Below, piece by piece: positions 5,776 through 25,768 of a stretch of DNA of 36,662 bases. Position 1 is the stretch's first letter, and the number at the start of each line of letters is the position of its first letter. The stretch comes from Bacteroidota bacterium. GTDB taxonomy: Bacteria > Bacteroidota > Bacteroidia > Chitinophagales > JADIYW01. Made by a program: the position numbers and the translations under genes. The stretch lies in assembly GCA_028288625.1 (NCBI GenBank), contig JAQBNI010000086.1:1-36662 (forward strand), written 5' to 3'. The notes under the pieces are model-generated. The model worked only from the letters and a program-made list of their open reading frames with translations. It did not search any database and was not told the DNA's origin.

Positions 5776-5900
5776 GGGGCGTGCCCCTCACACCTCGCGC
5801 TCAAGCCTGCCTTCGTTCGGGTCGGGCTATCCGCTGCAAGCCTTGCATGCACTAAAGCAGCGCAAAGGCTTTCCGCTTCTATCCCTCACGCAAAAGACCT
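5776..5900. repeat. Palindrome-rich intergenic repeat-like element
   Basis: The stretch opens with a compact hairpin (ggggc-gt-gcccc, 5776-5787) and continues with GC-rich text containing 'gtcgggctatccgct' and 'gcaaaggctttccgct'. It is much more GC-rich than its surroundings. Similar elements with a GGGCG..CCC hairpin and 'TCGGGCT.TCCGCT' occur between genes in many Bacteroidota genomes (from memory). Only one copy is in this window, so repetition cannot be shown here. The rest of the 5604-6311 gap holds the tRNA scar and short repeats listed separately. Confidence 0.5.
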
Positions 5901-13154: not shown

Positions 13155-14375
13155 TTATCCCTTGATAACTCTCTCATGTTCGGTATCAAGCTGTTCGCTT
13201 GGCAGGGAATCCAAGTAAATTTCAGTAGTTTTTGTACTGCTATGACCGAGCATTTCAGAAATAGATGTAATGGGAATATTGAGTTGTTTGGCAATTGTTG
13301 CAAACGTATGTCGGGCAACATAAGCAGTAAGCTTTTCAGCAATTTCACATCGCTTGGCTAAATCCTTCAATTTTTCATTATAACGCGCCCGAGCCCATTC
13401 TATATCTCTATAGATTTCTTCTTCATTTGTCCGCTTCACTATATTGAAAATATAATCATTGCCGTTTTTTCCATCAAGATAAATGTCAAGTATGTCTTTA
13501 ATCTCGGCAATGATTTTGATGCTATAGGGTTTATCCGTCTTTTGACGTTCATAGTAAATACGGCCTCCAATAATATTAGAATATTTCAAGCGTGCCATGT
13601 CTGCATATGGCATGCCTCGAGTATAGAAGCAAAACAAGAAAATCAGTCTCGTATGGTACAGTGGATCTTGCGGGGATAAATTCAATGCTTGAATTTTACG
13701 GATGGAAGTCATGGAAATAGCCCGCTTAGCCGTTTTCGTAGTTTTAATCTGATAGTTTTTAAAAGGATAGCTTGCAGCTTCAATAAGGTCTGATTTGATC
13801 GCTTGATTGTAAACCGCTTTAATGGTGCGCATATATGCAGCAAGCCCATTTAATGCATTGCCTTTTTTCATGTGTGCAATTTCCATGTTCTTTAAAAATT
13901 GATACGTTATTTCCTCAAAACTAATATCATCTTTACCTGTAATGGTTCTCAGATGAGTAAGCATGGATCGGTACGACCGGGCATTGCCAATGCGCCCAGC
14001 TTCTTTGAGTTCATCAATTAATTGTTGGGTATAGTCGGTAAACGATGGGCTTAATGTGTCACGTTCAAACAAATCTTTAATTTGCTTTGCATCATTTAAT
14101 GTTGCTAACAACTTTTTATCATCGAGGTAAGTAATAAAGTCTACAAGCTCAGTTTTTTTGTTGCTGATCCAGTTATTGAGACGCATGACTGATTCGGTTC
14201 CTTTATAGCTTGATTTGACTTTGCGGGCTTTATCGTCCCAATCCTTTGCATGGAAGAATTTGCCAAGAGTTATTTGGGATGAAGTAGTGCCATGGATAAT
14301 ACGTAACAGGAGTGCATACGTTCCATCCGGCTTTGGTCGGCGGGTGTCTAACACTACCAATACGTTTGTTTTCAT
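13155..14375 (-). CDS. Tyrosine-type site-specific integrase of the mobile element
   Basis: 406 residues, full length for Bacteroidota element integrases. An N-terminal arm-binding domain (about 1-95, with 'RRPKPDGTYALLLRI' and 'ITLGKFFHAKDWDDKARKV') is followed by a SAM-like core-binding domain (about 110-200) and the catalytic domain (about 220-395). Catalytic residues seen: Arg253 ('YTRGMPYADMARL'), Lys280, Arg355-His356 ('YVARHTFA'), His378 ('MLGHSSTKTTEIYL') and nucleophile Tyr387. The box II His is Tyr352, common in this group. It should excise and insert the element, and is the best candidate for use of the tRNA-Asn site at 6040, though the giant gene lies between them. A terminator follows and it is 84 bases downstream of the mobilization operon. 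Confidence 0.93.
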   Translation of the reverse strand: MKTNVLVVLDTRRPKPDGTYALLLRIIHGTTSSQITLGKFFHAKDWDDKARKVKSSYKGTESVMRLNNWISNKKTELVDFITYLDDKKLLATLNDAKQIKDLFERDTLSPSFTDYTQQLIDELKEAGRIGNARSYRSMLTHLRTITGKDDISFEEITYQFLKNMEIAHMKKGNALNGLAAYMRTIKAVYNQAIKSDLIEAASYPFKNYQIKTTKTAKRAISMTSIRKIQALNLSPQDPLYHTRLIFLFCFYTRGMPYADMARLKYSNIIGGRIYYERQKTDKPYSIKIIAEIKDILDIYLDGKNGNDYIFNIVKRTNEEEIYRDIEWARARYNEKLKDLAKRCEIAEKLTAYVARHTFATIAKQLNIPITSISEMLGHSSTKTTEIYLDSLPSEQLDTEHERVIKG

Positions 14376-14702: not shown

Positions 14703-14989
14703 AACATTTTTTTGGCGTTAGATTCAATGTATTCCAATATGCTTTCTTTGTCATACACAGTATTCTTTTTTGATAAAATAAAAGAGAATTTAATTTTGCC
14801 AGTATCTTTTAATACTTGTAGACTCGTTCGAGAAGAAATATTCAGCAATCTCATAGCTTCTTCAGCACAAATCCATTTTTGTTCAATACCATGCTTATCC
14901 CGTACATAAACCATGAGAGTATCTACTAATGATTTGAATGCATCAGTTTTTAAGCAAATTACTTCATTGTCATTATCTATCTTTCCCAT
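14699..14989 (-). CDS. Excisionase-like helix-turn-helix protein
   Basis: 96 residues. The central part 'WICAEEAMRLLNISSRTSLQVLKDTGKIKFSFILSKKNTVYDKESILEYIES' is a winged HTH of the MerR/excisionase (HTH_17) type. It has the typical 'A.rlLniS..T...l...GkI.f....' helix, then 'y...sI.eyi'. In Bacteroidota mobile elements such proteins bend DNA at the attachment site to drive excision or regulate mobilization genes. It overlaps the relaxase gene by 13 bases and the next small gene by 4. It is two genes from the integrase, consistent with recombination directionality. Confidence 0.8.
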   Translation of the reverse strand: MGKIDNDNEVICLKTDAFKSLVDTLMVYVRDKHGIEQKWICAEEAMRLLNISSRTSLQVLKDTGKIKFSFILSKKNTVYDKESILEYIESNAKKMF

Positions 14990-15783
14990 GATTTTATATT
15001 TTGGTGAAATGATGTGTCGCGTACTTTTCCAAATTCAGATACATATAGTTCTTTATTGCGTAGGTATTGCAGATCAATTCCCAAAGTGCGAAAGCGGATC
15101 TTCCTTTTTCCAATAATCCCCGCAACATTTCCTTTTCTTTCATAAAGTTTATAGCCTTGCTTTTTCAGTTTCGCAAAAAAAGAATTTTGTGAATCAGAGT
15201 ACAAATACAATTCCTTTACGGTAGCATTAATCTGCTCTTTTTCTGTAACTACACCTCGCTTCCTTATCTGATATTCCTTTTCAGAAACACGTGTCTGTCC
15301 TTTGCCATGCATTACCTGGCTGTGTTCGAGTTCAGGAAAAGCGTTTTGCAATTCCATCTTAATTTCATGAAATCGTGATTTAGACACTCTTGTGGAAATT
15401 CCACTTTGATCTATTCCACTAATCGCAAAATGAATATGAATAGATTGTTTGTCGTAATGAGGTACTGCTACAGACAAAGCATGAGCATTCCTTAGCCTGA
15501 GATATTTTTTTGCAATGGCTTTAAGCTTTTTTTGTGTGAGATGTTTGCTATCCAATTGATGAATGGATAAAATGTCATGGTACACCAAAACAGAATTCTT
15601 TCTGGGATGGACACGATTCTTTTCATTGAGCATAATTGTCTTAGTATAATCTTGTATTTTAGTTCCCGTGATATTCTGAAGTAATAGGAAATCATTTTGC
15701 TTTTTCTCTTGGAAAAAATAACTGAGCAACTGTTGTATAGTACTTACTCGGTTGCCTTTTCTTGTAAGAGACTTAATAATCAC
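14977..15783 (-). CDS. Relaxase / mobilization nuclease
   Basis: 268 residues. The start 'MIIKSLTRKG...IQQLLSYF' matches the Bacteroidota relaxase N-terminus, with Tyr22 as likely nicking residue. The metal-binding motif is 'HYDKQSIHIHFAISG' with His109, His116 and His118. 'VLVYHDILSIH' lies before it. It would nick at oriT and stay bound to the transferred strand. It overlaps the accessory mobilization gene by 4 bases and is shorter than many family members, lacking a long C-terminal region, which is typical of mobilizable rather than self-transmissible elements. No oriT could be identified by eye. Confidence 0.9.
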   Translation of the reverse strand: MIIKSLTRKGNRVSTIQQLLSYFFQEKKQNDFLLLQNITGTKIQDYTKTIMLNEKNRVHPRKNSVLVYHDILSIHQLDSKHLTQKKLKAIAKKYLRLRNAHALSVAVPHYDKQSIHIHFAISGIDQSGISTRVSKSRFHEIKMELQNAFPELEHSQVMHGKGQTRVSEKEYQIRKRGVVTEKEQINATVKELYLYSDSQNSFFAKLKKQGYKLYERKGNVAGIIGKRKIRFRTLGIDLQYLRNKELYVSEFGKVRDTSFHQNIKSWER

Positions 15784-16232
15784 TTTATTTCAATTTTAGT
15801 TTTTATTGACTCTAAAACCATTCTTAATTCATCATAGTTATTATTACTAAACCACTTGTTTGTTTCTTTCACTTCTATGCCATCAATAGTATTCTTATAA
15901 TAGGTTAAGAGCTGTAAAATTTCTTTATAATCCATAGTGTGTTTAAGTGGCGAAGATTGAGAAAGATCGGCGCACACCAATAATTTTAAATAGCCTGGAA
16001 TAGTTACGCCATATTCTTTTGCACGTATACGTACTTGTTTTATTTGCAGATTTGAAAAAGAAAGCGAAAACTCACGTCTTTCTATTTTTCGCTTTCGATG
16101 TTTTAATTTCCTGTCATATGCCTTGTAATAATCCTTAATCTCTTGTTGTATAACCGCTTCATCACCGCCATCAAGAAAACCATTTTGATAAAGATGTAAC
16201 CATAGCCTTGTATTTCGCTTAGGATATTTCAT
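15780..16232 (-). CDS. Accessory mobilization protein (ribbon-helix-helix type, MobC/MbpA-like)
   Basis: 150 residues. A very basic stretch (residues about 40-52, 'RKLKHRKRKIERREF') precedes 'LSFSNLQIKQVRIRAKEYGVTIPGYLKLLVCADL', which reads as a beta strand followed by two helices, as in ribbon-helix-helix relaxosome proteins. These bind oriT and help the relaxase open the strands. It lies directly upstream of the relaxase with a 4-base overlap and downstream of the coupling ATPase with another 4-base overlap, so the three are translationally coupled. The family call rests on the motif and the context. Confidence 0.75.
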   Translation of the reverse strand: MKYPKRNTRLWLHLYQNGFLDGGDEAVIQQEIKDYYKAYDRKLKHRKRKIERREFSLSFSNLQIKQVRIRAKEYGVTIPGYLKLLVCADLSQSSPLKHTMDYKEILQLLTYYKNTIDGIEVKETNKWFSNNNYDELRMVLESIKTKIEIK

Positions 16233-17638
16233 TCCATATTGAGAAAGTGGAGTTCATTTTCGTAAGCATCACCAATAAAACTTTCAGTTTTATTCTGCGT
16301 CTTTGAACGCATTGAGGGATTGTCATAATAGGGTGTAAGTTTAAGCTTCATTGGCTGTGCATTTCCATAAAGCAAAATCGCTTCATCTGCGCTCATTGTG
16401 CGTACTTCATCTGCGGTCAAGAGTTCCCGCACCGAGTTTCCTGTGTCTGTTGTATATTCAAATCTTCCAAGTTCCTGGCTGAGGTCTTTAGTAACTCCAT
16501 AACTCAAACCAGTCATATAGAGTTTAGCTATACAGTTGTTGCGGATCGTTTGGGCGTCATTGGCTCCATACAATTGTTCCACCTGTGCGTAATCCTGACA
16601 TAGTAACATGACATTGGCTAAGTACTTGCGGGACGTACTCAAAATACTTGATATGGATGGCAGATGCAATACTGGAAATTCGTCTAAAACAAACTGCACA
16701 TATCTATCGCTATCGCCGCCTTCAGGTAGTTTTGACATGAGGAGCTTACACATTTGCTCAAAGAAAATTGAAATAAGAACGGAGTAGTAATTACTATCGG
16801 TTGAATTGCATTGAATAAAAATAGCTCGTTTGCCTTTGCGCAAATCCTCAATTCCAAGAGTATCAATTGCAGTTATTTTAGAAACTTCCGGGTCTGAAAA
16901 TATTTGCAAGGCAGATATAGCCGTTGCAATGATGCTGGTCCGAAGCTTAGTGTCATAGGAAATAAAATTTTTGTATTCATTTATGATTTGCTGATTGTTT
17001 GTATGAATGATCAAGGCATCCAATACTTTTGGATTGAAGCTAAATTGTTGCAATAAATGAAGCGTATTGACAAAGGTTCTATACTTTTCTTTTTGATGAA
17101 TTTGTATCTGAATGACAAGCGATATAATTGCTGTGGCAGAAATATTCCAAAATGGATCTTTCCCTTCTCCGAGCGTTGCGCGCACGAGCATTCCCGCAAT
17201 TTTATTTGCGTCGGATTTATCCTTTATCCTGTGCATTGGATTCCATGACCGGCTTATGAGAGAATTAGATAGATTAATAACTATGACATCATATCCTCTT
17301 TCTTTTAAATTATGACCTGTATGTAGTAGTAATTCGCCGGACGGATCGTTCAAAATCATGCTGTTATTTGATTTCAAAATGCTTGGTATAACGATAGACG
17401 ATGTTTTTCCAACACCAGAACCCGCAATGACAAGTGCATGTGGTTTTTGTATCTCTAAGCATCGTTTCCCATCAAGGCAAAATCCATCATTTGATTTTGA
17501 AAGGAATTTATCTACTTCAATAAATTCCGATTTGTAACTGTGATCTCTACTTTCTTTTATTAATTCATTTGTTACGCTATCAAAGCCGCGATGCATCATT
17601 AATAATAATTCTTCTGAAAGTGTTGCTATCCTTCCCAT
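16229..17638 (-). CDS. TraG/VirD4-type coupling ATPase, lacking its own membrane anchor
   Basis: 469 residues. Walker A 'GSGVGKTS' is at residues 73-80, 'NDPSGEL' near 97-103, and Walker B 'YVQFVLDEF' at about 313-321. This is the order expected of type IV coupling proteins, which deliver the relaxosome to the conjugation channel. Typical family members carry two N-terminal transmembrane helices; here the 70 residues before the ATPase core have none. The gene one base upstream encodes a separate 56-residue membrane protein, which may supply the anchor. No VirB4 or channel protein is in the window, so a helper element is needed for transfer. Confidence 0.9.
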   Translation of the reverse strand: MGRIATLSEELLLMMHRGFDSVTNELIKESRDHSYKSEFIEVDKFLSKSNDGFCLDGKRCLEIQKPHALVIAGSGVGKTSSIVIPSILKSNNSMILNDPSGELLLHTGHNLKERGYDVIVINLSNSLISRSWNPMHRIKDKSDANKIAGMLVRATLGEGKDPFWNISATAIISLVIQIQIHQKEKYRTFVNTLHLLQQFSFNPKVLDALIIHTNNQQIINEYKNFISYDTKLRTSIIATAISALQIFSDPEVSKITAIDTLGIEDLRKGKRAIFIQCNSTDSNYYSVLISIFFEQMCKLLMSKLPEGGDSDRYVQFVLDEFPVLHLPSISSILSTSRKYLANVMLLCQDYAQVEQLYGANDAQTIRNNCIAKLYMTGLSYGVTKDLSQELGRFEYTTDTGNSVRELLTADEVRTMSADEAILLYGNAQPMKLKLTPYYDNPSMRSKTQNKTESFIGDAYENELHFLNME

Positions 17639-17639
17639 G

Positions 17640-17810
17640 TTATAGATGCTTTTTAGGTACTTTTAAATAATCTTCTATTTTCGTGTTGAGAATGGAAATA
17701 ACCATAACTACAATTCGCCCTGCAATCAATAAGAGTAGCAGGAAAAGTCTCCATAGCAGAAGAAACGATTGCTTTAAAATTGTTGACACGATATTTTTTT
17801 CAGATTTCAT
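17640..17810 (-). CDS. 56-residue membrane protein, candidate detached anchor of the coupling ATPase
   Basis: A short gene, ATG at 17810, TAA at 17640-17642, one base before the coupling ATPase start codon. The product starts 'MKSEKNIVSTILKQSF' and has a strongly hydrophobic core from about residue 16 to 40 ('FLLLWRLFLLLLLIAGRIVV' then 'MVISIL'), then a charged tail 'NTKIEDYLKVPKKHL'. That gives one long or two tightly packed membrane helices with a polar C-terminus. Position, spacing and hydrophobicity suggest it replaces the N-terminal membrane part missing from the ATPase. An independent membrane protein is also possible. It sits 9 bases after the next upstream gene. Confidence 0.7.
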   Translation of the reverse strand: MKSEKNIVSTILKQSFLLLWRLFLLLLLIAGRIVVMVISILNTKIEDYLKVPKKHL

Positions 17811-17819
17811 GGTATTGAA

Positions 17820-18548
17820 TTATTGATACACTAATGTTGGTCCAATCTTTACAGTGGCTCCATGGGATTCAAAAATCTTTTTTATGATTCCTGACATTTC
17901 TATAAACCGCTCATTGTCGAAATAATCTCGTGGTAAGTAATTAATGTAAATGTGTATGCCTGTAAGATTTTCAGGTTTCAGTTTATTTTCAAATCGTGCA
18001 ATAATCTTGTCTGGATTATTTTGTATCTCTTCAATGTCTTTTCGATTATACACAGAAAATAAATCTGAATTTTCCTGTAAGTCCGAACAAATAATTATCG
18101 TTCGTGAAGTAGCTTTTACCTTACTGAGTCTATTGTTTTCTCGTACAATAGGTTCATAAACGCAAGAGTTATCAAAACCTGTATCTATTGTATAGAGCGA
18201 TTGTAATGCTGAATCCAGTTTATTACCAAATGCCATAATTTCTCTCTTTCGTTTATTCGGATTCGACAAAAACATAAACTTCTTATCAAGTTGCACCTTT
18301 TGTATAGAACTATAATTGAAGTTTGTAAGCGACTCAAAATATACTGTATGCCTACTCCATATATGGTTTTCAACTAGAGAATAGTCAAATAAATCTCGTC
18401 CACGTATCTCATTTAATTGCTTATCGGTAAGGTCAACAAAGACCACTGTTTCGCTATCACTTAATGCACCTTGATGATACATGTGCGCGCTGAGAATCGC
18501 TAAACAAAAAGAGAGAATACCAAAAAGGCTATTTATTAATATTTTCAT
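17820..18548 (-). CDS. Membrane-anchored extracytoplasmic protein with a von Willebrand A-like fold
   Basis: 242 residues. One N-terminal hydrophobic helix (about 6-26) acts as signal anchor. The strand 'ETVVFVDLTDKQ' followed later by 'RTIIICSDLQENSDLF' resembles the first and fourth strands of von Willebrand A domains (D-x-T/S and S-D), and 'LTGIHIYINYLP' a further core strand. The similarity is structural and tentative. It starts inside the end of the 367-residue membrane-protein gene (4-base overlap) and ends 9 bases before the small anchor gene, so it is part of the mobilization operon. A role as periplasmic partner of the transfer machinery is possible but not shown. Confidence 0.7.
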   Translation of the reverse strand: MKILINSLFGILSFCLAILSAHMYHQGALSDSETVVFVDLTDKQLNEIRGRDLFDYSLVENHIWSRHTVYFESLTNFNYSSIQKVQLDKKFMFLSNPNKRKREIMAFGNKLDSALQSLYTIDTGFDNSCVYEPIVRENNRLSKVKATSRTIIICSDLQENSDLFSVYNRKDIEEIQNNPDKIIARFENKLKPENLTGIHIYINYLPRDYFDNERFIEMSGIIKKIFESHGATVKIGPTLVYQ

Positions 18549-19648
18549 TGTTCATTATTTTGAGGTTCAACAATTATTTCATCTTCATTAGAAATATCTA
18601 AATCTTTAATCTCATGAAAACAATCTGGAAATATACCGTCGGTGCGAGTTCTGATATTAAGCTCGACAAATACAGCGACTGCTTGCTTATAGAGAGATTT
18701 AATTAGTAAGTTTAATTGTCGCTGGTCATGACGTTTTCTCAATTTGTCTGTACCAATCAAGTTTTTGGATGCAACAAGTAAATCTATTTCGCGTTGAATT
18801 TGAGTAATCGCAATTTGTTTTTTATTAATTCCATTTTCAATGTTTTCATACGCTTCCATTTTTTGTTGTACTTCATCTGATGGAATGTATCTGTAAATAG
18901 CATAAGCGGTAGAAGCAAACACCAATATATTGATAAGTACAAATGCAATCGTATGGTCTTCTTTTGTTTCTTGCTCGCTTTGTTTTGCTCTCATACTGCC
19001 AAGTACAATAGCCATAACAAACAACAATACGATGATGCCCCACTTTACGATAATCTTGCCTCTGGATTGAGGTTGATCTCGTAAATCTGTCACCGCAGAT
19101 TTTATGAGCATAAAAAGTGAAATACCAATGAAGATGCCTAAAATAACCGCAATGATTACAGCATCTTCAAATACATTTAAACATGCAGCGATTACACTAA
19201 TTACATCAGCAAAAATCATGACTGATATTAACAATCGATATTTACTGTGAGATTTGGGAGGGTTTACTATTCCCATTTTGATTTTATCATCTTCCAGATT
19301 GCCCTTATCTTGTTCAAGCAATTCCTTCTCTCTCTTTTTTTGGAAAATCTTTTCGGTTAATTCTGCAATCTGAAATTTTCCATATACAATTTGCATACTG
19401 CCGTGAAGGGCTAAATTAATTTTGCTTACCCATTCCATGTAAAACATTATTAGTTTCATGACATACGGATCAAGCTTGTCATTTTCCTTAGGAAGTGCCG
19501 GAATCCGTCTTCCATAGCCTGCAGCAAGCGGTGGAACTTCGGTTTTTGTGAAGACTTCGTGCGCTTTGATAAGTTCGCTTTGTAATTTTTGTGCTGTATC
19601 ATCTTTTCCATTAGACGATACCGGTTGTTTAATTATTTCCTGTTTCAT
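18545..19648 (-). CDS. Four-helix membrane protein with flanking coiled coils, unknown function
   Basis: 367 residues. Four hydrophobic segments at about 138-157, 161-182, 199-218 and 232-254 form two hairpins. They are bracketed by charged helical regions likely to form coiled coils (about 92-122, 'AELTEKIFQKKREKELLEQDK', and 258-298). The N-terminal 60 residues are polar. No family is recognised. Both ends would be on the same side of the membrane, most simply the cytoplasm. It is 29 bases downstream of the acidic 150-residue gene and overlaps the VWA-like gene by 4 bases. It could be an inner-membrane assembly partner of the coupling ATPase, by context only. Confidence 0.7.
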   Translation of the reverse strand: MKQEIIKQPVSSNGKDDTAQKLQSELIKAHEVFTKTEVPPLAAGYGRRIPALPKENDKLDPYVMKLIMFYMEWVSKINLALHGSMQIVYGKFQIAELTEKIFQKKREKELLEQDKGNLEDDKIKMGIVNPPKSHSKYRLLISVMIFADVISVIAACLNVFEDAVIIAVILGIFIGISLFMLIKSAVTDLRDQPQSRGKIIVKWGIIVLLFVMAIVLGSMRAKQSEQETKEDHTIAFVLINILVFASTAYAIYRYIPSDEVQQKMEAYENIENGINKKQIAITQIQREIDLLVASKNLIGTDKLRKRHDQRQLNLLIKSLYKQAVAVFVELNIRTRTDGIFPDCFHEIKDLDISNEDEIIVEPQNNEQ

Positions 19649-19677
19649 TGTATTGTATTTTATCGTGAAGAACTTTA

Positions 19678-20130
19678 TTATCTGGAATATTCATTTTGTT
19701 GTTCATCTTGTGTGTTATGATTGAATTCTATTTCATTATTAGGATCGTCTGTTTTTTTCATCTCATCTTTTGACGTTTCATTACGTTCATACTTTTCTTG
19801 GTCTTCCTTTGAGAGTTCATCAACAAGATTATTATAATGGTCTATATCTAAGAATGAGAATTGGATTGGAGTAAAACTGTAGTCACACCAGATGTTACTT
19901 TCAGGCTTATTATTAATTTCTTCAATGTTGAAGTAATCCCATTTGGAGGTTTGATCTCCTTTCTCTATGAAGCCATAACACAATTGTGTTTCAGGATTGT
20001 ATTCAATCGGATAGTACCGATCTTGATTTGACAAATCTGTAAAGCATGAAAGAAGCAATGGATTATTCTTTTGTTTCTGCTTTCCAGTTGATTCGAACAG
20101 GTCTAATAATCTTTCATTGATGATTTTCAT
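19678..20130 (-). CDS. Acidic hypothetical protein
   Basis: 150 residues, rich in Asp, Glu and Asn, without signal or membrane segments. 'CYGFIEKGDQTSKWDYFNIEEINNKPESNIWCDYSFTPIQFSFLDIDHY' is a folded-looking aromatic region; the last 45 residues are low-complexity and charged ('DEMKKTDDPNNEIEFNHNTQDEQQNEYSR'). No family is recognised. It is 26 bases after the gene above it and 29 before the membrane-protein gene, so it is co-transcribed. A DNA-mimic or binding-partner role is conceivable from its acidity but unsupported. Confidence 0.65.
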   Translation of the reverse strand: MKIINERLLDLFESTGKQKQKNNPLLLSCFTDLSNQDRYYPIEYNPETQLCYGFIEKGDQTSKWDYFNIEEINNKPESNIWCDYSFTPIQFSFLDIDHYNNLVDELSKEDQEKYERNETSKDEMKKTDDPNNEIEFNHNTQDEQQNEYSR

Positions 20131-20156
20131 AACTAAACGTTACTTGTTAAATGAAT

Positions 20157-20609
20157 TTAATGTGCTCTACAAACTCTAATACAACCATTTGAAACGCTAT
20201 GCCTAAAGTGCAGAGAGACGTCTGGAAACTTTGCATTTAATACTGCATATATTTTTCCATATAGGGCTTTGATAAAGGCATCCGTATCTATGAAGTAGTC
20301 TGAGTAAAAATTCGAGATTAGCTGTTTAATATTATCGGGAGTAAAAATTCCGAATATCCATATTGATTGTTTATCGAATTCCAATTGCGGTATTCTTTGT
20401 AATGTTGATTCAAATTCTGAGGACAAAATGCGTTCTGTATCTCTTATAAAGGTTCGACTATTGAGATAGCTCTTAGAAATAATTTCATTGCAAGATTTTA
20501 ATAATTGAAAATTTACAATCGCTACTTGTGTTTCTGATCCTAATAGAACCAAGTGTTCCAGATCAATCTTCTTTAAAGTGTTTGGGAAGATGTGTTGATG
20601 ATAAAGCAT
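20157..20609 (-). CDS. Hypothetical protein of the mobilization operon
   Basis: 150 residues of mixed alpha/beta composition ('LEHLVLLGSETQVAIVNFQLLKSCNEII' ... 'KQSIWIFGIFTPDNIKQLISNFYSDYFIDTDAFIKAL'). No motif is recognised and there is no signal peptide. The C-terminus holds two cysteines ('GCIRVCRAH'). A plus-strand open frame partly overlaps it, but this frame fits the operon direction and spacing. The 228-base gap to the next upstream gene (20838) contains no other convincing gene. Confidence 0.6.
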   Translation of the reverse strand: MLYHQHIFPNTLKKIDLEHLVLLGSETQVAIVNFQLLKSCNEIISKSYLNSRTFIRDTERILSSEFESTLQRIPQLEFDKQSIWIFGIFTPDNIKQLISNFYSDYFIDTDAFIKALYGKIYAVLNAKFPDVSLHFRHSVSNGCIRVCRAH

Positions 20610-20837
20610 ACATTTTAGTTTTAATTGAAAACCGCATTTATCTTATTGTAACTAATCGGCGATACAATTTCGTTAATATGTTTACTGACGTAGCCTTAGC
20701 TCAAACAGTAGCTCAAAGATTATCTCTCTTATTAACTCAATAACACAAGTCTGTTCGGAATAGTAAAATTTGCACTTTAAAGACCGCATGAAGTACCGAA
20801 TTAAGTTGTATCGATAGATCTTTGTTTTATAATTCGT

Positions 20838-21485
20838 TCAGTGCGCTTGTTGCATCATCAAAACCTTCTGATAATCTATAATGAATTGTCGCTCAAAAGG
20901 AGATAATGATGTGGTTAACCTTAGAACTATGCGAAGTTCTTTTGTGCTCAACATGTGTTTGTCCTCTGAAATAAGATAGTTACTTACTAATCTCGTAAGG
21001 TCTTCTAGCTTCATAACATCTGTTATGTGGATATGTAGTTTTGCAGAAAAATAAGTTAATTTAGATGACTTGGCTGCTTTCCCGTATCTATCCAATAAAA
21101 TATTTCTAGCATCATCTATTGTAGCGTACTTGCAAAATAGCTCATGCAGACAGACCAATCGCAGTAATAAAAAATTATTGAAATCTTTAATAGTAAATGT
21201 TCCAATGTGTCTAATACCTGGTGTGCCTTGTAGGTAAGCGAATCGTGAAAACATTATATTTCCGGTGTCCTCATTGATCTTTTGCAATAGAACATTTAAT
21301 TGTGTTTCAAACATTAATTGGTTGTTTTCATCATTAAAAAACGAATTAAACTTTGTGATAAAATCTGAGGTATAAACACCTAACCGATTTGGTAGATATT
21401 TAGTATAAAATGGGTTATCTCTTAGAGGTTGCATTGTGTTTAAGTTTTCCCCAATCGTTAGCTTAAACCATTGACAATCTTCCAC
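20838..21485 (-). CDS. Hypothetical protein, first gene of the mobilization operon
   Basis: 215 residues, helical, no signal peptide. 'YLPNRLGVYTSDFITKFNSFFNDENNQLMFETQLNVLLQKIN' and 'LSTKELRIVLRLTTSLSPFERQFIIDYQKVLMM' are the most protein-like parts, and I recognise no family. Its leader lies opposite a probable antisense RNA whose promoter overlaps the first codons, so its expression is likely controlled there. Such a layout is common for plasmid replication or transfer regulators, but no Rep motif is seen. The next gene is 228 bases downstream. Confidence 0.62.
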   Translation of the reverse strand: MEDCQWFKLTIGENLNTMQPLRDNPFYTKYLPNRLGVYTSDFITKFNSFFNDENNQLMFETQLNVLLQKINEDTGNIMFSRFAYLQGTPGIRHIGTFTIKDFNNFLLLRLVCLHELFCKYATIDDARNILLDRYGKAAKSSKLTYFSAKLHIHITDVMKLEDLTRLVSNYLISEDKHMLSTKELRIVLRLTTSLSPFERQFIIDYQKVLMMQQAH

Positions 21486-21498
21486 TTATAGTTATAAT
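21471..21498 (+). promoter_or_regulatory. Consensus -35/-10 promoter for the antisense RNA
   Basis: TTGACA (21471-21476), a 16-base spacer, then TATAAT (21493-21498). Both hexamers are exact sigma-70 consensus on the plus strand. This is unlike the usual Bacteroidota TAnnTTTG element and suggests a strong or foreign promoter. Predicted start is near 21504. Confidence 0.7.
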
Positions 21499-21503
21499 GG
21501 CAG

Positions 21504-21612
21504 AGAGCTTGTCTAGGAACCAAAGAGTACGGTTTTGAAGCCCTTTATACTTTTTGGCGTAACTCAAGCTTACGGATTGGAATTATTAATTTAATTCCGT
21601 CCGGTTTTTTGT
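21504..21612 (+). ncRNA. Candidate structured antisense small RNA, about 105 nt
   Basis: It follows a consensus promoter and ends in a clear terminator. The fold has an outer stem agcttg (21506-21511) with caagct (21565-21570), and an inner 9-bp stem ccaaagagt (21520-21528) with actttttgg (21549-21557) including one G-U pair, with a 20-base loop. Then comes the terminator: cgga (21573-21576) with tccg (21600-21603), ggaatta (21579-21585) with taattcc (21592-21598), and six T's from 21605. No open frame fits inside. It is transcribed away from, and complementary to, the leader of the minus-strand gene starting at 21485. Antisense control of that gene is the simplest reading. No known RNA family was recognised. 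Confidence 0.7.
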
Positions 21613-21621
21613 TTTAAAAAT

Positions 21622-21698
21622 AAATGGGAAGTTTCAAATGAAATGTGAAAAAGGAATAATCAGCGTACTGATCAGTTTGAAATTCCCATTTCACATTT
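21622..21698. repeat. Two competing hairpins arranged A-B-A'-B'
   Basis: Segment A (aaatgggaa, bulged g, tttcaaa; 21622-21638) pairs with A' (21676-21691) over 16 bp. Segment B (aaatgtgaaa; 21641-21650) pairs with B' (tttcacattt; 21689-21698) over 10 bp. A' and B' share three bases, so the two stems compete. On the minus strand, the A/A' stem is followed by a T-rich run and could act as an attenuator. On the plus strand, B' ends beside a strong aaggaggt sequence (21699-21707 region). Confidence 0.6.
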
Positions 21699-21732
21699 GA
21701 AGGAGGTGGAATTAAGTTGCTTAAACCCTTCA

Positions 21733-21750
21733 ACAAACTAGGCAGTTTGT
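21733..21750. repeat. Short perfect hairpin
   Basis: acaaact (21733-21739) and agtttgt (21744-21750) form a 7-bp stem with a 4-base loop. No T-run follows on either strand, so it is not a terminator. It belongs to the structured 21486-21982 intergenic region. The remaining part of that gap (21751-21982) is AT-rich, with a near-repeat 'catata' pair at 21770-21795, and I see no gene in it. Confidence 0.5.
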
Positions 21751-21982
21751 GCTATTGTGATTTAAAATGACATATATCGCTCAATATGGCATATAGTGGT
21801 CCTCTAATTTACCTTTTACCTTAGCAATGTGTTTTGTTGGCTTGTGTCCAACCACATAAAAATTTATGACATTACTTAAAAACGCCTTAGAATACAATTT
21901 CAGAATCTTTCTCAGGCGGTGCCTTATGCTATTTAAAACTTTTACTTTTAAAATGTAATTATAATTTGTTAAATTTCTTAAA

Positions 21983-23086
21983 ATGTGGAAAACGAAAGCA
22001 ATTAGTCTTAATAAAATAGCGATTGTACAATTATCTTCTTCACGTATACAAATACTTTATATCTCTGAAGCAAATGAAAAATATCTAAAAAGTACTTTTT
22101 CCTTTTTTGATTACGATATCACCCTTGATGAAAAAATAAACATATTATGCTGCTTGAATGGTGACGATAGGATTGACATTTTATCGTTTAAAAAAAATAT
22201 TCTTGGCATATTAAGAAAACTAAAATTTAAAGCTGAAAAGAATAATGTCACCACTTTCTACCCTATTGGCACAGAAATTTTCAGAAACATACATAACAGA
22301 TTAGAAGTTATCGAAGTAATTAAAAGAGAATTCGAAGGTCACTTTGAAATTCTAACCAATACTCAGGAGTCAGAAGCAATAATAAAATCGTTCTTCATTA
22401 GCAAACCTTCTTTTACCCGTATAAAACCTAATCAATCTTATCTCTATATTCATGGCTATGGGGTTTCAACCAAAATAATCTTTTTTAAAGATCGTGACAT
22501 TTTATACGATATTAATCTAACGCTAGGACCCTTATTATTACTAAAATCTTTACTGCAATCACCCAATATTAATATAAAGGAATTTCTTACTCAGGTAGAG
22601 ATTAGGATTACTAAGGTAGTAAACGAGCAAATCAAATATACGCCAACTAAACTTTCACGCTATTGCATTGGAAGTGGTACAATCATAGAAGAAATAAATT
22701 TTTATCCTGAAGAAGTTTATGAACCTGCAAGTAAAGAAGAATGGCGAGAATGGGAATATCGTATAACTAAAAAACAATCTGATAATTTTCCAAGCATTCA
22801 CATAGAATACATAGAGTTAAGCCACATAGGGAAACAAATAGCTTTGTATGATGAAAGCATTATAACAGAATTTGGATTGATAGATCGGTTTGAAACTATA
22901 AACAAAGAACTAGAGGAAAAATTATTAATGAGGTTAGGGTTAACTATTTATATGTCGGTTATGAAAAAATTTGCAATAAAAGCAATCATTGTAAATTGTG
23001 CAAGTTTGTCATATAGCATATTATGGGATAAATTAGGCTTGCAATCTAGAAATATCAAAGTGTCACATAATAATTTAAAATTATAA
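21983..23086 (+). CDS. Divergent Ppx/GppA-like (ASKHA fold) protein
   Basis: 367 residues, cytosolic. Several blocks match the exopolyphosphatase/guanosine pentaphosphatase order: 'VTTFYPIGTEIFRNIHNRLEVIEVIKREF' (normally ATSALREA.N...), 'FEILTNTQESEAIIKSFF' (normally the vISG.eEA), then 'SYLYIHGYGVSTKIIFFKDRDILYDINLTLGPLLL', matching the second phosphate loop that is usually D-I-G-G-G-S-T. The Asp and glycines of that loop are changed to H-G-Y-G-V-S-T. It may therefore have lost hydrolase activity and could act as a nucleotide sensor. It is divergent from the mobilization operon across the structured intergenic region. ATG at 21983 is the first start. Confidence 0.6.
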   Translation: MWKTKAISLNKIAIVQLSSSRIQILYISEANEKYLKSTFSFFDYDITLDEKINILCCLNGDDRIDILSFKKNILGILRKLKFKAEKNNVTTFYPIGTEIFRNIHNRLEVIEVIKREFEGHFEILTNTQESEAIIKSFFISKPSFTRIKPNQSYLYIHGYGVSTKIIFFKDRDILYDINLTLGPLLLLKSLLQSPNINIKEFLTQVEIRITKVVNEQIKYTPTKLSRYCIGSGTIIEEINFYPEEVYEPASKEEWREWEYRITKKQSDNFPSIHIEYIELSHIGKQIALYDESIITEFGLIDRFETINKELEEKLLMRLGLTIYMSVMKKFAIKAIIVNCASLSYSILWDKLGLQSRNIKVSHNNLKL

Positions 23087-23110
23087 AAAACTCTCTTATG
23101 CGCGATTATC

Positions 23111-23203
23111 AACAGCTCAACCGGCTATGTTGATATCAAACAAATAAGAGGTTTTGGTATAATTGAGCATAATAAAATTACTTTTTTGGAGATCATGGAT
23201 TAG
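23111..23203 (+). pseudogene. Possible cold-shock-domain remnant
   Basis: An open stretch of about 30 codons reads 'STGYVDIKQIRGFGIIEHNK', which follows the cold-shock pattern TG.V......KGFGFIEH, with one residue missing in the spacer. It ends in a stop without the rest of the domain and has no start codon. It could be a decayed fragment, or chance resemblance. It lies just after the Ppx/GppA-like gene. Confidence 0.3.
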
Positions 23204-23207
23204 TATA

Positions 23208-23633
23208 CTAATCTATAAATATCGCACCGAACAAGAGTAATGCAGCAAACCCTAATCCTACTTTTAAGCCTGTACTTATTTGTTCGCTTCTGATTTCTTT
23301 ATATTGAACCATGTTGCTGTAGTGCTCACAATTGAACAACAAAAGATCGTAGGGTTTTCCTTTATGTAAATATGCTCTCCTCACTGCTTCATCTCTTTCT
23401 TGCACATTACCAATAAACCTTTCTATTCCTGTAATCTCATTTACACTAGCAAAAAAATCTGTTGCTGTTGTAAATTGCACCCCCTTGCCAATCTTATTTT
23501 CAGCGAACCAATGGACGCCATAAGAATCTTTTCCTAAGTAAATTGCATGATGCTGAACCCAGTTTAAATTACTTTTAGGTACCACAATTCTATCAGCAGG
23601 GCGCAACAGGAGATTTTTAAATTTATTTGTCAT
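23208..23633 (-). CDS. LRAT-like papain-fold protein with C-terminal membrane helix
   Basis: 141 residues from ATG at 23633, chosen because the longer frame would run into the upstream gene's end. 'LLRPADRIVVPKSNLNWVQHHAIYLGKD' carries the conserved His (28-29) of the lecithin:retinol acyltransferase/NlpC-P60 superfamily. 'LLFNCEHYSN' holds the catalytic Cys102 in the NCEH motif. A hydrophobic helix (about 121-140) ends the protein, as in human HRASLS-type enzymes. The family includes acyltransferases, phospholipases and thiol hydrolases acting on membrane lipids; the substrate here is unknown. It is 7 bases after the 94-residue gene, so the two are likely co-transcribed. Confidence 0.8.
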   Translation of the reverse strand: MTNKFKNLLLRPADRIVVPKSNLNWVQHHAIYLGKDSYGVHWFAENKIGKGVQFTTATDFFASVNEITGIERFIGNVQERDEAVRRAYLHKGKPYDLLLFNCEHYSNMVQYKEIRSEQISTGLKVGLGFAALLLFGAIFID

Positions 23634-23640
23634 AATAATA

Positions 23641-23925
23641 CTATTTATAGGTTTGCCAATTTTTAATAATCCACTCACGTACATGCGCCTGGCTATGTAA
23701 CTCTTTTGGAACTCCTTTATGAATCATACGCTCAATCTTCTGACCATCTGTCTTATCCGTTAAACGAAGCTGGGTCATTAGTTTATTTATGAAATACACC
23801 ACCTCATAAATTTCGTGCCTGCTGAGTAATGTATTGTCGGGTTCTCCACTTACTCGTGGATCATCTCCTTTTATAGCTGTCGCACTATAGCCGGTAAATA
23901 ATAAATCTGATTGCAAAAAACTCAT
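23641..23925 (-). CDS. Small hypothetical protein paired with the LRAT-like gene
   Basis: 94 residues from ATG at 23925 ('MSFLQSDLLFTGYSATAIKGDDPRVSG'); a longer frame to 23967 exists but adds an unlikely Lys/Ile-rich leader. The rest is a helical segment 'RHEIYEVVYFINKLMTQLRLTDKTDGQKIERMIHKGVP' and 'HVREWIIKNWQTYK'. No family is recognised. Its stop lies 7 bases before the LRAT-like start, suggesting a two-gene unit. It may be a partner or regulator of that enzyme. Confidence 0.6.
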   Translation of the reverse strand: MSFLQSDLLFTGYSATAIKGDDPRVSGEPDNTLLSRHEIYEVVYFINKLMTQLRLTDKTDGQKIERMIHKGVPKELHSQAHVREWIIKNWQTYK

Positions 23926-23994
23926 AATTTTATATTTTTTTTGATTAATAATATCCAACAATATCACGTTGGATTCTTGCTAATAATTATTTGT

Positions 23995-24990
23995 TTATAA
24001 TGCGCTTAATTCAAAACTATATTTGTAATCAATTAAAGCTTTCTCCGCTACATTTGCAGACCAAGCTTTTTCTTTATGACTGATATCAACGATCTCTTTC
24101 GTGTTATATCCTTTAAATTTTTGTAGCACTGTCTCTAAAGTATCTAGCTCTATATGATTGAAAAGCTTCTTGTTGAAGGATATGTTTTCATGCTTATCAA
24201 ATTGTTCTCCAATATTATCATTATATCGGATAAGGTTTATTTGAATAAATCCTTTTTCTTCTGCATACTCAAAAACACCATTAAAATTTTTAGGAACTGG
24301 TCCCATTTGAATAGCTCTATAACTTGCACCACTTATGGAAAAACAAGTTCTCTTATAATTATAAAAATCTGCATAGAACAAGAGCTTATTAAGCATTGTC
24401 TTATACGGCTTTAATTGTTCTGCAAAATACAACACCATATTTGCGATCTTCTCCAAATGAGGAGCACGATAACCAGTAAATTCATTGGGGGTCCTATCAC
24501 CTAATAAATAGTCTTCATATACTTGTTCAAATGATGCCCATCCTTGAAGTGAGGCATCAATTTTGTCTCGCAACTTTTCATATTCCTTATGATCATATTG
24601 TTGACTACTTCTTAAAACACTCAGAAAGAATTCAGGATGTTTTATTTGTTGCAAGAATTTACCGTTGGAAACTGAGGGAACTTCTCCGGCTTCATAGTTC
24701 CTATATACATTTATTCCAAACCCAAGAATTTCACTCATCTTATTAGGACTCAAGCCATATTTTTCTCTAATATTTTTAATCTCATCTGGAAAAGGAATAC
24801 CATATTTAGCCCTATATGCGTTATAGGCTTGATTAATATTTATTTCGTCCAAACTAGTTGTCGTATACTGTTCGCCAGTTTCTTCATCTAAATAGAAATG
24901 ATACAACACATTAAAATCTTCCTTTCGAAAGACAATATTTTCCATACTAGTATGGATTTTCATTTCGTTACCTGTTAATGGACTTTTCAT
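23995..24990 (-). CDS. Panacea-domain antitoxin with MqsA/HigA-type HTH
   Basis: 331 residues. The N-terminal part (about 1-60) resembles the YgiT/MqsA leader but lacks the zinc-binding cysteines. An XRE-like HTH follows at about 68-115 ('FPDEIKNIREKYGLSPNKMSEILGFGINVYRNYEAGEVPS'). The C-terminal half (about 183-310) matches the Panacea (DUF4065/SocA-like) domain: 'NMVLYFAEQLKPYKTMLNKLLFYADFYNYKR', 'AIQMGPVPKNFNGVFEYAEEKGFI' and the final 'HKEKAWSAN'. Panacea domains neutralise many unrelated toxins. It would bind the toxin encoded just upstream (4-base ATGA overlap) and, through the HTH, repress the operon at the palindromes near 25385 and 25424. Confidence 0.85.
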   Translation of the reverse strand: MKSPLTGNEMKIHTSMENIVFRKEDFNVLYHFYLDEETGEQYTTTSLDEININQAYNAYRAKYGIPFPDEIKNIREKYGLSPNKMSEILGFGINVYRNYEAGEVPSVSNGKFLQQIKHPEFFLSVLRSSQQYDHKEYEKLRDKIDASLQGWASFEQVYEDYLLGDRTPNEFTGYRAPHLEKIANMVLYFAEQLKPYKTMLNKLLFYADFYNYKRTCFSISGASYRAIQMGPVPKNFNGVFEYAEEKGFIQINLIRYNDNIGEQFDKHENISFNKKLFNHIELDTLETVLQKFKGYNTKEIVDISHKEKAWSANVAEKALIDYKYSFELSAL

Positions 24991-25346
24991 ACCGAGTTGT
25001 TTTTAAATGGATAATTCATTTTATATTCAGCTGGATGAAAGGAAATACATAGTGGACGTCCCTCTATGTTTCCTATTGTTATTTTAATATACACTTCTTT
25101 TTCTTTTACGTCTTTTCCAAATACCCACATATCAGATCCTTTATATGCAACTTCGTCTAAAGGACCTTCACTGTAATCAATTACATCAATGGCTTCTAAA
25201 ATTTCCATTCTCTGTAGGGGTACAATACCTAAATCCGCTAATGCTTGTGCATTCTTTGGGCGCTTATCTAAAAATATAATTTCAAATGTTCGAAGTCTAG
25301 CTTTAAACTCATTAAGAAATTTTTTTACTTGTTCTGGTGTAGTCAT
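24987..25346 (-). CDS. MqsR/RelE-superfamily-like toxin of the Panacea pair
   Basis: 119 residues. 'FLNEFKARLRTFEIIFLDKRPKNAQALADLGIVPLQRMEILEAIDVIDYSEGPLDE' and the ending 'WVFGKDVKEKEVYIKITIGNIEGRPLCISFHPAEYKMNYPF' match the MqsR-family layout: long helix, then a beta-sheet with Lys and a terminal 'SFHpAeypm'. MqsR and relatives cleave mRNA. The toxin comes first in the operon and its stop overlaps the antitoxin start (ATGA), as in HigBA and MqsRA systems. No closer family name can be given by eye. Start ATG at 25346; a ggagg lies 15 bases upstream. Confidence 0.75.
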   Translation of the reverse strand: MTTPEQVKKFLNEFKARLRTFEIIFLDKRPKNAQALADLGIVPLQRMEILEAIDVIDYSEGPLDEVAYKGSDMWVFGKDVKEKEVYIKITIGNIEGRPLCISFHPAEYKMNYPFKNNSV

Positions 25347-25384
25347 CTCTCATAATTTTTGCCTCCGTTCTTTTGCCTATCTAT

Positions 25385-25437
25385 ACTTTATAGTGTAAAT
25401 ATACGACAAATTGCGCATTTTTTACACTTTATAGTGT
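25385..25437. promoter_or_regulatory. Twin operator sites of the toxin-antitoxin operon
   Basis: The 12-base word actttatagtgt occurs twice, at 25385-25396 and 25426-25437, 41 bases (about four helical turns) apart. The second copy forms an acact-ttat-agtgt inverted repeat (25424-25437). A related half-site (tacactat) lies at 25507-25514. The position, just upstream of the toxin start, fits autoregulation by the HTH antitoxin. Confidence 0.65.
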
Positions 25438-25748
25438 TAAAATTATATGGGAAGGCATATCAAGTTAATTCTCAATTAGTAACTTGACGTAACAAGTCTT
25501 AAATTTTACACTATGACATCATTAATTGTCGTATCAACGTAATTCACAATTGGGAGCTTGAAAATTTAATTTAATTTTTTCGTGAACGGATTAAGGTTAA
25601 GCCTTGAAGAATTGAAAAAAAATATAAAAAGGACTGTTGACATGTTACATACTTGTTATTTAGAGTAACCCACAAGAGAACTCGGGAACTAACGACATAG
25701 AAAAATAGTACACACTAAATTATGCGATATTCTAATTATCATCTATTT

Positions 25749-25756
25749 TAGGTTTG
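25749..25756 (+). promoter_or_regulatory. Bacteroidota -7 element for the SIR2 gene
   Basis: TAGGTTTG matches the Bacteroidota TAnnTTTG consensus exactly and lies 12 bases before the ATG at 25769, implying a very short leader. No clear TTG -33 element is seen. The rest of the 25438-25768 gap is AT-rich and holds no gene that I can see. Confidence 0.45.
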
Positions 25757-25768
25757 CGCTAACAAATA

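Follow-up and report, generated by a model that had tools for sequence, protein, structure and literature searches.

A predicted structured RNA with a sigma-70-consensus promoter beside the mobilization operon of a Bacteroidota element

Introduction

FinP of the F-like plasmids is a small folded RNA with a terminator stem-loop, encoded on the strand opposite a transfer gene, at its leader side. According to the available part of PMC9977716, it pairs with the ribosome-binding site of traJ with the help of FinO, and its loops matter in this pairing. Few transfer-controlling RNAs are known in Bacteroidota. RteR of CTnDOT reportedly inhibits transfer, as the title of its original paper says. It is an RNA of about 90 nt from a conjugative element of Bacteroidota that affects expression of the tra operon, and as of 2020 it was one of only two sRNAs known in Bacteroides (PMC7366714, as far as its accessible text goes). 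The DonS-type cis-antisense RNAs of 78-128 nt are divergent to Bacteroides operons and repress them (PMC7366714 and PMC10994844, accessible text). In the mobilizable island SGI1, sgm-sRNA lies beside mobilization genes and has a near-consensus sigma-70 promoter (PMC9299015, accessible text). A literature search at title and abstract level, with subscription papers mostly outside its coverage, showed among the entries listed no description of RNAs such as the one reported here in mobile elements of Bacteroidota.

In the accessible text of PMC7366714 and PMC6847099, Bacteroidota promoters are described as devoid of the classical boxes and as carrying TAnnTTTG, and E. coli genes as not being expressed there; the available part of PMC9723704 contains a similar statement on the promoters. 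The phylum is also described as having no Shine-Dalgarno sequences (PMC6847099, accessible text).

Here we analysed a 36,662-nt stretch of DNA from a Bacteroidota bacterium (contig JAQBNI010000086.1; hereafter the window), in which an earlier note had seen an antisense RNA on a consensus promoter opposite the leader of an operon. With a probability of roughly 0.4, we read it as an sRNA gene that belongs to an integrated mobilizable element and encodes a constitutive negative regulator, which would act on the mobilization operon by antisense contact.

Results

Gene context of the predicted RNA

Judged by its predicted genes, the window carries an integrated mobilizable or conjugative element (Table 1). 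The minus strand from 21434 down to 13155 encodes a coupling protein, a mobC-like protein, a MobA/VirD2-type relaxase, an HTH protein and a tyrosine integrase. The coupling protein matched five named relatives, four from Bacteroidetes MAGs and the fifth and weakest from a Clostridia MAG; on these matches and on the Bacteroidota-type tRNA promoters of the related loci, described below, the window is assigned to Bacteroidota. Matches to p215 were found in two of 396 genomes of the order, one being its own genome and the other weak (20% over 95 aa). The product of p242 was matched in 46 of the 75 loci described below, the window included; p242 and p367 (17820-19648) are unnamed genes of the mobilization operon, with no Pfam or NCBIfam family above the cut-off. 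The earlier note had likened the layout to antisense control of plasmid copy number or transfer. The relaxase, the VirD4-like protein and the tyrosine integrase give the transfer part a fitting context; for copy number, a Pfam scan of 20 proteins of the window turned up no recognisable replication protein.

Table 1. Coordinates of the operon, the promoter and the predicted RNA in the window, and positions of similar candidates in related loci
Feature	Position	Strand	Basis or remark
p215, likely first operon gene	20838..21434	-	ORF; ATG 21434, longer GTG start 21485 possible; no Pfam or NCBIfam match
p150b, p150a, p367 (membrane), p242, operon genes	17820..20609	-	no family above cut-off
VirD4-like coupling protein (T4CP)	16229..17638	-	nearest CD1115 family, below its cut-off
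Relaxase and small mobC-like gene	14977..16232	-	PF03432, weak TraI/MobP; mobC-like gene named by position only
Tyrosine integrase	13155..14375	-	Pfam
Sigma-70-type promoter, TTGACA-16-TATAAT	21471..21498	+	12/12 sequence match; also in related elements
-35 TTGACA; 16-bp spacer; -10 TATAAT	21471-21476; 21493-21498	+	
Predicted structured RNA, ~107 nt, rod domain and terminator	21505..21610	+	ends approximate, start ~21504-21506; fold z -3.94 to -4.24
Rod domain: closing stem GAGCUUG/CAAGCUU, internal loops, inner stem, apical loop	21505..21571	+	folding; closing stem 21505-21511 / 21565-21571, inner stems 21520-21557
Intrinsic terminator	21573..21610	+	hairpin 21573-21603, -12.8 to -15 kcal/mol; T run 21605-21610
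Two overlapping inverted repeats	21622-21698		
Ppx/GppA-like gene	21983..23086	+	same direction as RNA, ~370 nt downstream of it
Flavo-1 RNA	5816-5896	-	50.9 bits
Clear members, first base of -35	window +21471; L038 +8263; L046 +9082; L049 +6560; L047 -7752; L122 -8649; L116 +7481; L118 -9899; L129 -3965; L132 +7845		
Weaker members	L121; L127; L108; L120; L040 (-6997)		all antisense

Promoter and predicted RNA

The exact TTGACA-16-TATAAT promoter claimed earlier is present with all 12 bases, and it is the sole 12/12 match within 17000-26000. By arithmetic, about 0.0007 exact matches are expected in the intergenic region of about 550 nt. Promoter-like matches overall were not commoner than in shuffles (52 vs 45.2, sd 5.5). 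The exact consensus was not enriched genome-wide in the 3.71-Mb draft genome that holds the window, with five matches to TTGACA-N16-18-TATAAT against seven to a reversed-pattern control, and inspection found no comparable hairpin and T run downstream of the other four.

The predicted RNA has an MFE of -34.2 kcal/mol (z -3.94), and none of 200 shuffles was equally stable. The earlier note had placed a strong terminator about 105 bases after the promoter, with stems between and no open frame. All of this held: folding revealed a hairpin with a T run, which a simple terminator scan had missed, and no ORF of at least 20 aa was found on the plus strand of the RNA. A protein-coding gene was rejected; one frame is open over 39 codons and contains no ATG, GTG or TTG. 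That a separate gene for a structured RNA, with its own consensus promoter, stands beside the DNA-transfer genes is supported by its recurrence in some related elements, described below.

Between the terminator and the divergent Ppx-like gene, two overlapping inverted repeats have one arm in common and could form two mutually exclusive hairpins. On the operon strand, the stretch 21605-21705 has a fold z of -3.54.

Comparison with described systems

In layout or role, the window RNA is reminiscent of FinP and RteR. A stem-loop and a terminator stem-loop are both predicted. The RNA lies on the opposite strand and adjacent to the operon; leader complementarity of the FinP type would in addition need an operon mRNA that starts upstream of the RNA. 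Unlike FinP, it stops about 70 nt short of the likely first gene (ATG 21434), covering neither a ribosome-binding site nor the start codon. The first gene is no known activator, and neither FinO nor ProQ domains were found among the 20 proteins scanned with Pfam. RteR and the DonS-type RNAs were compared by description only: in the available text the former is trans-encoded (PMC7366714), and the latter lie opposite susC homologs of polysaccharide loci, not transfer genes (PMC7366714, PMC10994844). No susC homolog was recognised opposite the window RNA, the first gene p215 having no Pfam or NCBIfam match. As the accessible text of PMC9299015 has it, sgm-sRNA differs in being processed from the 3' end of a transcript of about 650-700 nt and in being required for transfer, not repressing it.

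Recurrence in related elements

Related loci were gathered via the coupling protein and not via the RNA. Coupling-protein matches were obtained in 70 of 298 order genomes at E 1e-3 and, at E 1e-40, in 26 of the 395 genomes at class level and 3 of the 395 at phylum level, the own genome being included. The first set comprised 56 loci, i.e., 55 fetched loci and the window; one of them, L131, came from a first-gene match. A hold-out set of 19 further loci, mostly distant (25-33% coupling-protein identity), brought the total to 75.

When the 56 loci were scanned promoter-first, a 12/12 promoter followed by rod and terminator occurred four times (the window, L038, L046 and L123) and never in reversed sequences. 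The corresponding counts were 3 vs 1 at 11/12, 25 vs 14 at 10/12 and 84 vs 58 at 9/12; one of the 11/12 candidates is a tRNA-Gly gene in L049. For promoters of at least 10 with a firm terminator, antisense-upstream candidates numbered 9 (2 in reversed sequences) and sense-upstream candidates 6 (1 in reversed sequences); hence the antisense preference taken alone is modest. Seven of the nine antisense-upstream candidates were accepted, with L034 +10911 and L130 -11852 left out. The former (TTGACA-16-GAAAAT, 10/12) is the sole candidate in L034 and ends beside a tRNA gene, and L034, which belongs to the same genome as the window and has a 49%-identical coupling protein, shows no accepted RNA.

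Promoter score and antisense-upstream position had played a part in choosing the members, so these traits are not independent evidence for them; the structure-first scans, original and widened, are the tests that were blind to the promoter. The original scan of the 56 loci gave 34 candidates, of which 33 were classifiable after the L131 structure, from a locus with no coupling-protein match, had been dropped. Twelve rod-plus-terminator structures lay antisense-upstream within 7 kb of the coupling-protein gene. Promoters of 11-12/12 were found at four of these twelve (the window, L038, L046 and L047), at none of 21 structures elsewhere and at none of 102 displaced controls. Without the window, which seeded the search, the count is 3 of 11, in which L038 and L046 are related to each other. 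After L116 and L118 had been seen, both with TTGACA-18-TATACT and an extra small hairpin ahead of the rod, the promoter search range was widened post hoc from 4-12 to 4-45 nt. Promoters of at least 11 then stood at 6 of 12 antisense-upstream structures (5 of 11 without the window), at 0 of 21 elsewhere and at 0 of 170 displaced controls. A distance band of 2-4.5 kb was not preset and was not used as evidence. Among the 19 hold-out loci, promoters of at least 11 were found at none of four antisense-upstream and none of nine other candidates. As these loci are mostly distant, the RNA would seem to be confined to one section of the family; otherwise the first set overstates the signal.

Clear members were recognised in 10 of the 75 loci, from eight genomes that span three genera and three families (g1/f1, g53/f8 and g173/f31); most of the loci show no such RNA. 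In the clear members, the distance from the -35 to the nearest ORF start on the operon strand is 37-356 nt. The L049 promoter is weaker (TTGTTG-17-TATAAT, 9/12), and this member was included for the similarity of its RNA. In L123, a similar RNA follows an exact promoter but is in sense orientation before p367. The ten are mostly unalike in sequence: L038, L046 and L049 form one recognisable subfamily, L047 and L122 are alike by eye only, and the searches gave no close relative of the RNA in the window. By comparison of these loci, the joint recurrence of promoter, fold, terminator and position in some related elements is supported.

Chance resemblance in AT-rich DNA is the least probable explanation. 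The unremarkable total of promoter-like matches and the empty hold-out set would agree with it; the promoter-first, promoter-blind and widened scans, together with the spacer and consensus counts over 75 loci given below, argue against it.

The RNA could also be a terminating leader, such as a riboswitch or attenuator, of the gene on its own strand, which in the window would be the Ppx/GppA-like gene. In 7 of the 10 clear members (the window, L038, L046, L049, L132, L118 and L122) the RNA is followed by a long ORF in the same direction, and the L123 RNA precedes p367. However, in L047, L116 and L129 the long downstream ORF is on the other strand. When the seven downstream proteins were compared, only those of L038 and L046 were alike (E 4e-41), all other pairs giving E values of at least 0.09; thus there is no common regulated gene, and we regard a leader as decidedly improbable. 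These two related genes (L038 8518-11079 and L046 9376-12768) are 25% identical over about 600 aa.

Small early-operon ORFs in L047 (7818-8189), L122 (8718-8960) and L129 (4034-4246) have, by eye, a short RH-containing motif in common.

Conservation of the fold

Nine members fold at z -3.3 to -4.9 and their complements at -2.4 to -4.7. As the complementary strand folds about equally well, energy does not fix the strand of the RNA. An alignment of five members by MAFFT was unusable and was dropped. For the three sequences of the subfamily (L038, L046 and L049), 87.2% of consensus-structure cells are paired against 79.5% in shuffles, a value reached by 2 of 500 shuffles. Five pairs are changed on both sides (28 of 500 shuffles), and each slid register gives a drop. 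In L049 the terminator differs throughout in sequence and is still a hairpin.

L038 and L046 agree at 22 of 24 and 17 of 18 positions in the lower rod strands, at 12 of 41 in the apex and at 8 of 16 in the promoter spacer. The -35 is identical at 6 of 6 and the -10 at 4 of 6, the latter as aligned by MAFFT across spacers of 16 and 18, both -10 elements being TATAAT. According to the earlier note, homologous elements that do not keep the stems or the promoter would refute its reading. Both are kept within the subfamily, apart from the weaker -35 of L049; for the window RNA, no close relative turned up. In some antisense systems the loops carry the specificity. The divergent apex on a kept lower rod in L038 and L046 follows this pattern.

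An alternative is that promoter and terminator work mainly by transcriptional interference or, as a boundary, separate the operon from the divergent gene, with the RNA itself functionless. The strong promoter faces away from the operon, the terminator is close and inverted repeats stand just beyond, all of which would suit such a boundary, but a rod that recurs under sequence change, and a lower rod that is near-invariant between L038 and L046, make it improbable in our view.

At the apex of the window RNA (21531-21545) stands GGTTTTGAAGCCCTT, of which near-identical copies occur in L038 (8216-8231) and L046 (9037-9051). There they lie between the RNA promoter and the start of the first gene, and not at the apex. 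Matches to GGTTTTGAAGCCCTT at 3 mismatches are not rare within the window itself.

Promoter type and host

The earlier note called the exact consensus unusual in Bacteroidota, which agrees with the published description of promoters in this phylum (PMC7366714 and PMC6847099, accessible text) and with a control on tRNA genes. Among the 11 tRNA genes of the first 56 loci with enough upstream sequence, a full TAnnTTTG within 120 bp upstream was found for 9 (2% of shuffles), and a sigma-70-like promoter of at least 10 for 1 (3% of shuffles). By this comparison of sequences, the sigma-70 promoter looks foreign to the hosts.

Over the 75 loci, the exact consensus occurred 8 times against 0 in reversed sequences, and 11/12 matches 46 times against 31. 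For TTGACA-N-TATA[ACT]T, spacers of 16, 17 and 18 were found 4, 6 and 4 times (1, 1 and 2 reversed), and every other spacer from 10 to 26 occurred 0-3 times. Four of the eight exact promoters stand at RNAs (the window, L038, L046 and L123) and two before short ORFs. Thus the sigma-70 geometry looks real in the related loci, despite no genome-wide excess in the host. The two directly before short ORFs are L125 -8957 and L040 -5418, the latter read by eye.

Inverted repeats that differ by element occur in the promoter spacer or around the -10 of L129, L046, L038, L122, L121 and L120. Their z values were -2.3 to -5.9 in 5 of 12 promoters, and that of L120 was seen by eye. They look like operators of element-specific repressors.

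The promoter Frpo of the F plasmid acts on single-stranded DNA. Such a promoter was rejected here, the -35 and -10 not being consistently paired in folded single-stranded DNA (e.g., 0.23 and 0.09 in L116).

A broader and rather doubtful proposal is that mobilizable elements of Bacteroidota carry an undescribed class of fast-evolving rod RNAs on sigma-70 promoters, which a different form of the polymerase would switch and which would time the movement of the element. If so, the main sigma factor of the host would not be expected to read these promoters, which would depend on a different sigma factor or on the polymerase of a recipient outside Bacteroidota. In a phylum said to be without such promoters, exact sigma-70 promoters pose a testable question.

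Known RNA families and a trans-acting alternative

At the gathering threshold, Rfam 15 gave no match for the window RNA, nor did Rfam for six other clear members or L123, and permissive thresholds returned nothing credible for the window, L038, L046 and L049. A covariance model, R1, was built from L038, L046 and L049. In the 298 order genomes, a 30-genome family and the local loci searched, it found only its own three members, with a few weak matches in the local loci at E 0.7-6.5; the window RNA was absent from its matches up to E 10. A plasmid search was negative for p215, the intergenic region of the window, the L046 RNA and p242. With the coupling protein it returned 158 records, all below 60% identity and mostly Gram-positive among the counts shown. 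Viral contigs contained three coupling-protein loci, at most 28% identical, and nine matches to an RNA motif, none of them a credible R1 match.

The RNA might instead act in trans, its internal loop and rod binding a protein, RNA polymerase in the manner of 6S, or a distant mRNA, with the intergenic space as no more than its site. 6S RNA has the shape of a rod with an internal loop, which the rod here recalls. Besides, a 13-nt stretch with the 5' internal-loop strand, GUUCUUUACCAUU, is identical in L038, L046 and L049 in spite of the wholly different L049 terminator, and L123 has its similar RNA in the other orientation. On the other hand, the clear members are divergent, and each of the ten stands upstream of an ORF start on the operon strand, at the distances given above, although position was partly a selection criterion. 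The 6S covariance models of Rfam matched neither the window nor the other nine clear members. A search of the own genome with 6S-Flavo gave no match, and its controls gave none either. We consider a trans-acting RNA unlikely, albeit a serious candidate.

Proposed repression of the mobilization operon

Under the antisense reading that we prefer, the strong promoter would yield an RNA of about 107 nt, folded into a closed rod and a terminator hairpin. Its transcription would head away from the operon, beginning in the gap directly before the first gene. The operon mRNA would start upstream of the RNA, so that its leader is complementary to the RNA. The two folded transcripts would then pair loop to loop, which would lower operon expression, and with it transfer, in the way FinP acts on traJ. 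Transcription, antisense contact and repression are steps that we infer.

This reading is favoured by the position of the RNA, by the divergence of loops in a fixed frame and by an exploratory pairing analysis, in which the complement of the RNA was set against the downstream leader, with leader lengths set by hand and p taken from 300 shuffles. Pairing exceeded shuffles in L129 (p 0), L121 (0.007) and L038 (0.033); L122 gave 0.063 and the others 0.147-0.423, the window standing at 0.423. Pairing of the RNA itself with the downstream leader was rejected, as it was no better than shuffles in all nine members tested.

Several points weigh against antisense repression. In the stretch scanned around the window RNA, no TAnnTTTG box on the operon strand places the operon start upstream of the RNA, and the leader pairing of the window is not significant. 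The L123 RNA is sense-oriented, the conserved internal loop would suit a trans-acting RNA, and sense-upstream candidates exceed their reversed control as well. Moreover, the RNA does not cover the start codon, the hold-out set gave 0 of 4, most loci lack the RNA, and the clear members come from few genomes and genera, with promoter and position having had a share in their selection. The earlier claim of an RNA antisense to the operon leader thus stands as regards the opposite strand and the adjoining first gene; coverage of the RNA by the operon mRNA drew no support from the scan for TAnnTTTG, and antisense control drew none from the RNA-to-leader pairing or from the orientation of L123.

A layout that recurs with different sequences hints at a new group of sRNAs that possibly control DNA transfer. 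A recurrent RNA gene heading mobilization operons would offer a handle on how such elements restrain or trigger transfer.

Other features of the window

A MqsA/Panacea-like gene beside a weakly MqsR-like gene (23995-25346) is likely a toxin-antitoxin pair. A SIR2-domain protein (25769-27529) has weak similarity to ThsA and SIR2-Argonaute defence models, and a Flavo-1 RNA was matched elsewhere in the window (Table 1).
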